Below are positions 12,166 to 15,919 of a DNA stretch of 64,000 nucleotides, piece by piece. A model generated the notes under the pieces. The model saw only the letters and a list, made by a program, of their open reading frames with translations. It had not been told where the DNA came from and searched no databases. A program made the position numbers and the translations under genes. Origin of the DNA: an uncultured Desulfosoma sp. (GTDB lineage Bacteria; Desulfobacterota; Syntrophobacteria; Syntrophobacterales; DSM-9756); contig CALGPN010000037.1 in assembly GCA_937960435.1 (NCBI GenBank), positions 1 to 64,000 on the forward strand, given 5' to 3'. Position 1 is the stretch's first letter, and every line of letters starts with the position of its first letter.

Positions 12166-12194
12166 TTGACATAGGGAACAGTTCTTTGTATATG
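12166..12194 (+). promoter_or_regulatory. Sigma70-type promoter
   Basis: TTGACA (12166-12171), 17-bp spacer, TATATG (12189-12194). Confidence 0.7.
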
Positions 12195-12206
12195 ACCTCC
12201 ACATGA

Positions 12207-12270
12207 TCAAGGCAATGAAGTCTGCCTGAACCGCCCCTGCCCGAACGGCGGGGATGATGACTTCTCCACG
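12207..12270 (+). ncRNA. Fluoride (crcB-type) riboswitch aptamer
   Basis: GGC-AAUGAAGUCU-GCC-UGAAC-[hairpin CCCCuGCC/GGCGGGG]-AUGAUGACUUCUCCAC; P1 GGC/GCC, pseudoknot GAAGUC (12217-12222) with GACUUC (12259-12264); lines up with remembered T. petrophila and P. syringae fluoride aptamers. Confidence 0.83.
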
Positions 12271-12350
12271 GCGAGGGGTTGTCAAAAGGTGGCAACCGCC
12301 ATTCGGCGTGAGGTTCGCGTTCAGGCATGTCGCTGTTTTTCCTGACAAAG

Positions 12351-12380
12351 ACCCCACCCGCATGGCGGCTGGGGTTTTTT
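12351..12380 (+). terminator. Intrinsic terminator of the riboswitch leader
   Basis: ACCCCACCCGC-ATG-GCGGCTGGGGT (one mismatch) followed by a U tract (ggggtttttt). Confidence 0.8.
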
Positions 12381-12414
12381 GATTTGATGCCAACATCATC
12401 AGGAGGTCGCGGGG

Positions 12415-14244
12415 ATGCTGGAACGATATCGACAGATGCAGGCCCGGCTTCTGAAAGTCTTGGAAGACATCCGGAACCTGAAAAAAAATGATTCCGACGA
12501 TGTCTTCGTCGGCCAAGTGGACGAATTGGCGGAAAAAGTTCGCCAAAGTGCCTTTTACCTTGTGGTCCTCGGTGAATTCAAACGAGGCAAAAGCACCCTC
12601 GTCAACGCCATCCTTAAAGATAACATCCTCCCTACCGCCGTGGTGCCGCTCACATCCATCGTGACCATGATCCGCTACGGCCCCGAGGAAGAAATTCTCG
12701 TGCGGTTCAAAGACGGCAAAACCCAAACCATCGATCGACGTCATCTGGTCGACTATGTCACCGAAAGAGGCAACCCGGATAATGCCAAAGGCGTGAACCG
12801 CGTGGAAATCGCCTATCCGGCGGAAACCCTTCGCGGCGGCGTCCACCTCATCGACACACCGGGGGTGGGCTCGATTTTCGAGACGAACACGCAGGCCACA
12901 TACGACTTCTTGCCCAAAGTGGATGCGGCCCTCTTTCTCTTTACGGTGGATCCCCCCATCAGCCAATCGGAGTTGGCGTTTTTGCGCGACGTGCGCCAAT
13001 ATGTCAGCAAGATCTTTTTTGTCCAAAACAAGATCGACTACGTGGATCCCGAAGATCGTGAAGAGTCCCTGGAATTTTCCAAACAGGTGCTCAAGGGCGT
13101 CATCCAGGACGGGGAAATTCGAATCTTGCCCCTTTCCGCCAAGCTGGCCCTGGAAGGACGGCTCAAGGAAGACCGCGAGAAAATCGCCCAAAGCTACTTT
13201 CCTCAGCTGGAAGAAGTCCTGACGCACTTTCTTACCCAGGAAAAGGGCCGTGTGCTCCTTCAATCCGCCACCCAGTCGGCCCGAAAGATGTTGAATGATG
13301 TAGAGTTTTCCGTCCAGCTGGAGCAGAAAGCCATTGAGATGCCGCTTCAGGATCTTGAACAGAGAATCGCCCTCTTCCAGAAAGAACTTCAAAAGATTCG
13401 GAGGGACCGCGAAGAGAACAGCTATTATTTTGAAGCCGAAATCAAACGGATCATGGCGTGGCTGGACCGAGAACTGAAGCGCCTGCAAAAGGACCATTTG
13501 CCGGAACTCATGGAACAGCTGCGCCAAGAGGGGGAAAAGAACCAACATTTGCCCGTTTCCCGATATGTGGAAAAGATGGAGAGCGTGCTCAACGAAGGGA
13601 TCGTCCGCACCTTCGACGACTGGATCGTCAATGAGGAAAAGGCCCTGAACGAAGAATTCGCTCGGGTCTCCCGCCAATACTCGGACCGGACCAACCAAGT
13701 TATTGAACGCCTCATTCAGGCTTCCGCCAAACTTTTCGACATCCCCTTCGAAACCATTCAAACGGATGAGTGTTTGCGGGCCGACAGCCGGTTTTATTAT
13801 CTTTTGGGAGATCCTCCGCGATTTTTCGACATCGCGGGCGCAGTGGATTTCTTTTCCCGAAAACTCATGCCTACAAGTTTTTCTCAAAAAAGGGTTTTAA
13901 GCAACCTCATGAAAAAACTGCCGGAGCGGATCGATGCCAACTGCGGCCGGGTCCGTTCCGATTTCATGCGTCGTCTCCAAGAGAGCTTTCTCACTTTCCG
14001 ATGGAACTTGAATGCCAAGATCGACACTACGGCCCAGGGCATTCAAGACGCCCTGGAAAAGGCCGTGGCTATGCAAAAGGCCGGAGCGGTCGAAAGGGAT
14101 CAGAAGATCGCCTTGCTCAACCAAAAAATGCGGACCATCGCTGCCATCAAAGAGGAACTGCGTCAAATGGCGCAACAGATTTCCACAGGAGATGCGGAAG
14201 AAGCTCAAATGGGCATGATGTGCTCCAGCACCGTCCGGGTGTAA
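12415..14244 (+). CDS. Dynamin-family (bacterial dynamin-like) GTPase
   Basis: GEFKRGKSTLVNAIL (G1), LIDTPGVGS (G3), NKID (G4), long coiled-coil C-terminus; SD aggagg. Confidence 0.88.
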   Translation: MLERYRQMQARLLKVLEDIRNLKKNDSDDVFVGQVDELAEKVRQSAFYLVVLGEFKRGKSTLVNAILKDNILPTAVVPLTSIVTMIRYGPEEEILVRFKDGKTQTIDRRHLVDYVTERGNPDNAKGVNRVEIAYPAETLRGGVHLIDTPGVGSIFETNTQATYDFLPKVDAALFLFTVDPPISQSELAFLRDVRQYVSKIFFVQNKIDYVDPEDREESLEFSKQVLKGVIQDGEIRILPLSAKLALEGRLKEDREKIAQSYFPQLEEVLTHFLTQEKGRVLLQSATQSARKMLNDVEFSVQLEQKAIEMPLQDLEQRIALFQKELQKIRRDREENSYYFEAEIKRIMAWLDRELKRLQKDHLPELMEQLRQEGEKNQHLPVSRYVEKMESVLNEGIVRTFDDWIVNEEKALNEEFARVSRQYSDRTNQVIERLIQASAKLFDIPFETIQTDECLRADSRFYYLLGDPPRFFDIAGAVDFFSRKLMPTSFSQKRVLSNLMKKLPERIDANCGRVRSDFMRRLQESFLTFRWNLNAKIDTTAQGIQDALEKAVAMQKAGAVERDQKIALLNQKMRTIAAIKEELRQMAQQISTGDAEEAQMGMMCSSTVRV

Positions 14245-14434
14245 GGATTGGGTTCCATTGCCTCACCGCAACCTAAAGCGGTGGAGAAAAGAAAGGATTT
14301 TCATGGGTCTCTGTTGGGGTTCGCTTCGCTCACCCCAACCTACACGGGTAAAGTAAGGGAGGATTTTCGGAGCCTTAAGTTGGGGTTCGCTTCGCTCACC
14401 CAATCAACGCCAGTGAAGATAGGGGAGGATTTTT
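14245..14434 (+). repeat. Three tandem copies of a 66-bp unit (hairpin plus GGGAGGATTTT RBS-like motif)
   Basis: GGATTTT at 14295, 14361, 14427 and GTTGGGG-type hairpin start at 14247 (degenerate), 14313, 14379: constant 66-bp period. Confidence 0.85.
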
Positions 14435-15919
14435 ATGGCCATTAGTTTGGCTTTGATCATCGTCCTAGGGCTTGGCGCCGATTACGTTTTCAAAAAGCTG
14501 AAGCTGCCGGGGCTCGTGGGCATGCTGCTGGTAGGCATTTTGGTGGGACCCTATGTCTTGGGACTCATGCGCCCCGAGATGATGCAAGTATCCGCGGATT
14601 TTCGAAAAATCGCTCTGATCGTCATCCTCCTTCGTGCCGGCTTTGAACTGCATCGGGACACGCTCAACCGGGTCGGCCGCGCGGCCTTGACCATGAGCGC
14701 CGTGCCCGCCATTTTCGAAATTCTCGGCGTCATGCTGGTCGCCCCCAAATGGCTGGGAATAAGCCTTTTGGAAGCGGCCATCCTCGGCGCCATCTTAGGG
14801 GCCGTGTCCCCTGCCGTCGTCGTCCCCCTCATGATCGACTACATGGATCGTGGCCTGGGAACGAAAAAGGGGGTTCCCACCTTGATTCTCGGCGCGTCCT
14901 CGGTGGACGACGTTTTCGTCATCGTTCTTTTCACAATTTTCCTCGGCATGTACGGCGGCGGCAAGGTGAATATCTGGGCAAAGCTCGCCGAAATTCCCAT
15001 TTCCATCGTCCTGGGCATTCTTGTGGGAGCCATCCCCGGCTATCTTCTCTACAAACTTTTCGTAACTTATGATTGGAAACCGCCCAAAAGGACGCTTCTC
15101 GTCCTCGGGGTGTCCATTGTACTCACGTGGATCGAATCGGCCGTGGAACATTGGGTCCCGGTGGCAAGCCTGCTCGGGGTTATGGCCATCGGGTTCGTCA
15201 TCCTCGAAAAGGCCGAACCCATCGCCCACCTCATTTCTCAAAAGCTCAAAAAGCTCTGGGTCTTCGCCGAACTGCTCCTCTTCGTCCTCGTAGGGGCTCA
15301 GGTGAATATCCACGTGGCGTGGAAGGCGGGGCTTGCCGGCACCGCGGTCATTTTCGTCGGCCTCATCTTTCGCAGCATCGGCACGTGGGTCTCATTGTTG
15401 GGAACGCCGCTGAATTGGAAAGAAAAACTCTTTTGCGTCGTCGCCTACATTCCCAAGGCCACCGTCCAGGCGGCCATCGGCGCCGTGCCCATGGCCGCCG
15501 GCGTCGCCTCCGGTGAAGTCATCCTGGCCGTGGCCGTCTTGTCCATCATCCTCACCGCCCCTCTGGGCGCCATCGGGATCATACTTATAGGGGACAAATG
15601 CTTGGACAAAGGGGACGTAAGCCCCTATCGGTTCAAAGAACTGCGGGCCAAGTTGGATCTTCCACGCGTCGGCGAACGTGTGCGCAGCAAGCGCTATGGC
15701 ACCGTGTGGAAAATTATCGAAGAAAAAGAAACTTGGATCCCTGTCCCGGCACACTTAGGCGGATCGGTGTTTCCCGACGGCAAAATGCCGGCCATCGTCA
15801 TTCGCTTTTGGAAGGAAGAAAGCGCCAAGGGGCCGGGTACCGGAAAAACCATGACGTACCGCTACAGCCAGCTGGACCCTTCCTTCCAGGAGCATTGGGA
15901 AGTGCTCTACGACTGGTAG
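14435..15919 (+). CDS. Cation:proton antiporter (CPA family) with soluble C-terminal extension
   Basis: Polytopic N-terminal ~400 aa (GLVGMLLVGILVGPYVLGLM, LRAGFELHRD, LGAILGAVSPAVVVPLM), C-terminal ~85 aa soluble. Confidence 0.85.
   Translation: MAISLALIIVLGLGADYVFKKLKLPGLVGMLLVGILVGPYVLGLMRPEMMQVSADFRKIALIVILLRAGFELHRDTLNRVGRAALTMSAVPAIFEILGVMLVAPKWLGISLLEAAILGAILGAVSPAVVVPLMIDYMDRGLGTKKGVPTLILGASSVDDVFVIVLFTIFLGMYGGGKVNIWAKLAEIPISIVLGILVGAIPGYLLYKLFVTYDWKPPKRTLLVLGVSIVLTWIESAVEHWVPVASLLGVMAIGFVILEKAEPIAHLISQKLKKLWVFAELLLFVLVGAQVNIHVAWKAGLAGTAVIFVGLIFRSIGTWVSLLGTPLNWKEKLFCVVAYIPKATVQAAIGAVPMAAGVASGEVILAVAVLSIILTAPLGAIGIILIGDKCLDKGDVSPYRFKELRAKLDLPRVGERVRSKRYGTVWKIIEEKETWIPVPAHLGGSVFPDGKMPAIVIRFWKEESAKGPGTGKTMTYRYSQLDPSFQEHWEVLYDW

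Follow-up and report, generated by a model that had tools for sequence, protein, structure and literature searches.

The window analysed here, a stretch of 64,000 nucleotides from an uncultured Desulfosoma sp., probably contains an operon induced by fluoride, in which the first gene encodes a membrane-maintaining dynamin of a distinct, widespread family that is normally under fluoride riboswitches. That fluoride controls the dynamin gene of the window is, on sequence grounds, close to certain, while membrane maintenance as the role of its product, argued by analogy, is somewhat favoured. The leader elements and genes described below lie on the forward strand.

The sole Rfam match within the window is a fluoride riboswitch aptamer at 12202-12273 (RF01734, scoring 40.1 bits where the cut-off is 34, E 1.2e-07), which is also the single fluoride riboswitch detected genome-wide. 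Its pseudoknot arms, GAAGTC at 12217-12222 and GACTTC at 12259-12264, are fully complementary as judged by eye. The aptamer scores below most others, and its 3' end reads UUCUCC where UUCUAC is usual, a variant shared only with the congener G001. Promoter-like hexamers, TTGACA at 12166-12171 and TATATG at 12189-12194 with a 17-nt spacer and 10 of 12 consensus matches, would place the transcript start near the aptamer, which sits between them and the dynamin gene. In 66 leaders of the family, the highest-scoring promoter-like site 5' of the aptamer averaged 9.3 out of 12, compared with 7.4 in shuffles. Further downstream, sequence and folds indicate an intrinsic terminator at 12351-12380 (ACCCCA-CCCGC-ATG-GCGG-C-TGGGGT followed by six T), and a Shine-Dalgarno sequence, AGGAGG, occupies 12401-12406, 8 nt 5' of the ATG. 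The initial annotation had described a leader followed by a 609-aa dynamin gene with a strong Shine-Dalgarno sequence, and the RF01734, Dynamin_N and AGGAGG assignments agree with it. It had also raised the prospect of an independent promoter 3' of the terminator; a consensus promoter scan of the forward strand from the terminator to the start codon found no promoter-like site.

In the usual transcription-terminating ON form of the fluoride switch, the pseudoknot strand pairs with a downstream segment that is followed by a U-run. For 67 leaders, we compared the pairing of the aptamer's 3' pseudoknot strand with the leader, from the aptamer to the start codon, against shuffles; the mean z was -2.57, and p was <= 0.05 in 51 of them. 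A U-run is often located directly 3' of the complementary segment, as in L128 (GATGACTTCTGC...GGGCAGGAGTTTTTTTTT). By this sequence arrangement, most family leaders resemble a transcription-terminating fluoride ON switch placed directly 5' of the dynamin. Complementarity reached z -2.32 (p 0.02) in the window and was not significant in the congener locus L033 (p 0.16). The leader of the window differs from the usual form in having a competitor hairpin, a possible antiterminator and a separate terminator. The hairpin, predicted by folding the transcript to 12300, is a 12-bp helix with arms at 12255-12266 and 12273-12284 that would take up the pseudoknot strand without fluoride. The 3' arm of the possible antiterminator, at 12343-12355, would pair with GGGGTTGTCA at 12275-12284; this tentative pairing is seen in the holo-constrained fold to 12366 and is absent from the full-length lowest-energy fold, so that this part is a kinetic model. 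In prediction, the three elements reach the same end as the canonical switch: once Mg2+-fluoride is bound, the pseudoknot would dock and termination would be prevented, allowing both the dynamin and the antiporter encoded behind it to be made.

The dynamin-like GTPase (609 aa, 12415-14244) matches PF00350 Dynamin_N with an E value of 8.8e-25 and 88.1 bits, against a cut-off of 27, and its G1 to G4 GTPase motifs, GxxKRGKST, T80/T84, DTPG and NKxD, are invariant across 22 riboswitch-linked family members. An AlphaFold model built from a deeper alignment reached a pLDDT of 81.9 (77 in an earlier model) and is closest to BDLP (TM-score 0.72) and IniA (TM-score up to 0.62); BDLP-like neck and trunk helical bundles are present in the model. 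A hydrophobic loop at approximately residues 442-486, unordered, of low confidence and with numerous aromatic and aliphatic side chains, occupies the expected position of the trunk tip and is a candidate membrane-binding tip. No transmembrane segment was found in the protein. Among named families, the NCBI cut-offs lie far above the scores obtained for DynA (NF052648, 82 of 1600 bits, a partial match to an equivalog profile), LeoA (NF041922, 21 of 325) and CrfC (NF007368, 28 of 1146).

The association between riboswitch and dynamin recurs widely. In 60 related genomes, 42 of which carry a fluoride riboswitch, matches obtained with the window dynamin as protein query were joined by coordinates to the riboswitch sites. 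Each of the best 24 matches begins 40-142 nt downstream of a same-strand riboswitch, and none of those ranked 25 to 45 has one; counted from the RNA side, a dynamin is the gene directly behind 29 of the 81 riboswitch sites. An even draw of 99 genomes, restricted to the phylum of the window and meant to avoid favouring near relatives, was searched with RF01734 and a 49-sequence dynamin profile. Twelve genomes contained the dynamin family at E <= 1e-60, with a riboswitch directly upstream in 11 of them, at a distance of about 40-200 nt when coordinates were compared. The twelfth, G010, falls in a clade adjoining the membrane pyrophosphatase HppA.

Beyond the phylum, a scan of named genomes returned 80 dynamin loci in Thermodesulfobacteriota, Nitrospirota, Bacillota, Actinomycetota, KSB1 and others; we had started it from riboswitch-linked dynamins, which biases it towards their branch, and loci were not chosen by whether they had the RNA. 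A riboswitch lies within 500 nt upstream in 63 of these 80 loci, the weakest of them scoring just 18-26 bits with a home-made RNA model, and in several loci beyond the 63 (L139, L145, L154 and L162) the dynamin is part of a longer operon behind a riboswitch. The home-made model had been built from these relatives, and to check it for circularity we examined 19 distant loci with Rfam: RF01734 scored above its cut-off in all 19 and lay directly before the dynamin in 18, whereas the nearest site in L145 is two genes upstream with the same orientation. In a tree of 101 dynamins, which has some long branches and unsure deep joins, the riboswitch state is strongly clustered. A riboswitch-less clade of the order of the window nests inside riboswitch-linked Nitrospirota sequences, which, in this unrooted tree, suggests that the switch was lost there. 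Since the pairing recurs, chance is excluded as its cause. The initial annotation had proposed the dynamin as part of a fluoride response and had regarded a failure of the context to recur in related genomes as fatal to the idea; the massive recurrence among relatives, in the even draw and across phyla strongly supports its proposal.

In eight loci (L073, L074, L076, L077, L081, L083, L084 and L085), the related riboswitch-less dynamin clade adjoins genes for HppA-type membrane pyrophosphatases. Decayed dynamin copies are located behind intact fluoride riboswitches at L072:2199-3239, L092:2353-3006 and G013:C17:78476-78649.

The second gene of the probable operon encodes a 494-aa protein of the Na+/H+ exchanger family (14435-15919; PF00999, E 7.4e-48), a neighbour that the initial annotation does not mention. 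The gap between the dynamin and this antiporter is 190 nt, and their co-transcription is likely. Two palindromic, REP-like repeat copies containing GGTTCGCTTCGCTCACC lie within the gap, at 14318-14410, and could affect the mRNA. Na+/H+ antiporters rank second in frequency among the genes under fluoride riboswitches (PMC11139923). In genomes such as G002 to G008, close homologues of this one have a fluoride riboswitch to themselves, and the antiporter has one of its own in most family members. The dynamin is absent from G002, G004, G005 and G007 despite their antiporter riboswitch, a point against the reading preferred here. One might suppose that the riboswitch of the window serves the antiporter and that the dynamin is a passenger inserted between them. 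However, separate riboswitches lead dynamin and antiporter in G003, G006, G011 and G014, whereas a single one lies 5' of both genes in the window and G001; many dynamin loci lack an antiporter, and more than a third of the riboswitch sites in relatives directly lead a dynamin, as counted above. We rejected this very improbable explanation on account of the dynamins with separate riboswitches, which largely refute it.

The initial annotation had seen no CrcB gene in the window, and the same can be said of the whole genome, where no CrcB match was found; its one CLC-type protein is encoded on another contig and, examined for CLC-F character, has GREGP and GVFGP, with no match of the GSGIP type. 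Among the 60 relatives, 17 have CrcB, and these include no member of the window's own family, f1. No sampled genome of families f1, f2, f5 and f6 has a CrcB match, although most have a fluoride riboswitch in front of antiporter or dynamin genes.

Gene maps place the dynamin alone under a riboswitch, together with antiporters, or inside fluoride islands that also hold CrcB, DUF190, a CPA2 antiporter, UspA, enolase and a HAD phosphatase. The dynamin and the fluoride channel CrcB are within one operon in G015 (riboswitch-dynamin-CrcB-DUF190, a 27-nt gap separating dynamin from CrcB) and in G025 (riboswitch-CrcB-DUF190-dynamin). Such operons, along with those shared with antiporters in the window, L033, L057, L059, L060, L124, L128 and L150, are what would be expected if the dynamin clustered, placed or turned over the antiporter or the fluoride channel instead of repairing membranes. 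This seems rather unlikely to us, considering the many loci in which a riboswitch leads only the dynamin and no transporter adjoins (such as L113, L064 and L068).

Other genes recur in these neighbourhoods. Long dynamins of about 870 aa are encoded at L062:2081-4699, L089:4714-7293 and L090:5612-8248, the last with a riboswitch directly upstream; that of L062, the one tested, has a C-terminal DUF6062 domain (PF19538). Separate related short genes lie 3' of dynamins at L149:1978-2703 and L170:2681-3406, and the fusion hints that DUF6062 may be a partner of fluoride dynamins. Uncharacterised genes recurrent in fluoride islands (L145:5256-6415, L171:318-2854, L164:5615-6058 and L091:3791-4544) encode zinc-ribbon/HEAT, HEAT-repeat and STAND-like ATPase proteins and small helical proteins without a Pfam match. 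MutS domain V-like genes are found directly behind fluoride riboswitches at L032:7021-8625, L034 near 9276, L041:6355-8007, L102:301-1893 and L089:15795-17390, in some cases with the variant riboswitch 3' end CTCTACGGAGAA.

Enolase also adjoins the dynamin in some loci (L160 and L132), an arrangement compatible with a different kind of explanation, in which the fluoride complexes AlFx, BeFx and MgF3- inhibit the GTPase and its synthesis is raised to offset the loss; enolase and pyrophosphatase are riboswitch genes for which such compensation has been put forward (PMC11139923). Yet the dynamin family is accessory, being absent from some close relatives and decayed in L072 and L092, and a paralogue clade of the same genomes lacks the riboswitch. 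An accessory family with riboswitch-less paralogues suggests a dedicated stress gene instead of a housekeeping target, and we judge compensation unlikely.

The preferred reading, membrane maintenance, draws on characterized dynamins. BDLP of Nostoc punctiforme (PDB 2j69), the best sequence match of the window dynamin among solved structures (E 2.9e-40), has the same modelled fold of GTPase, neck and long helical trunk, although identity is only about 18% in the structural alignment and the window protein is shorter, with a different tip. Mycobacterial IniA (PDB 6j72) is similar in size and fold, at about 15% identity; it is a stress-induced protein that mediates membrane fission (PMC6715688), its inducers being anti-tuberculosis drugs. 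DynA of Bacillus subtilis, which acts in membrane surveillance (PMC8844932), and the paired Campylobacter DLPs (PDB 5owv/5oxf) represent surveillance or tethering dynamins; DynA is a double-length protein, whereas the window dynamin is single and its family mostly unpaired. On entering the cell as HF, fluoride depresses both the internal pH and the proton-motive force (PMC11139923). From the precedents of IniA and DynA and this effect on the proton-motive force, we infer a membrane role, which would fit both the BDLP/IniA-like fold and the adjoining transporters. The dynamin would act like BDLP, IniA or DynA: its trunk tip would mediate oligomerisation at the inner membrane, and GTP would be used to seal or remodel membrane that leaks protons and HF. 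Sealing would in turn preserve the proton-motive force needed by the antiporter and by fluoride export.

Both the RNA and the protein fold are of known kinds; what is new is the conserved pairing and the function that it implies. The RF01734 regulon, comprising crcB, eriC/CLC-F, Na+/H+ antiporter, UspA, enolase, pyrophosphatase and MutS-like genes, has the same aptamer, kind of switch and operon partners, but the gene controlled here encodes a dynamin-like GTPase, which was not found in the gene lists examined. A search of the available literature returned no paper joining a fluoride riboswitch with a dynamin or GTPase, and the initial annotation likewise took a dynamin role in fluoride stress not to have been described; an entry in an old supplementary table is possible.

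Known fluoride resistance consists of exporters, pH balance and the replacement of inhibited enzymes. Dedicated fluoride-response dynamins in several phyla could constitute a third, membrane-defending arm of resistance beside export and pH balance and, together with the antiporter, the main riboswitch-controlled defence where CrcB is missing, as it is here; we regard this as quite possible, if somewhat short of probable. On this view, fluoride complexes may also act directly on the GTPase cycle of the dynamin, as a second sensor at the protein level. A whole dynamin family under a fluoride switch suggests that fluoride toxicity owes much to damaged or leaky membranes, a contribution that has gone unrecognised. 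Bacterial dynamins, which are poorly understood, would thereby gain a defined small-ion inducer, making their function testable by the addition of fluoride.
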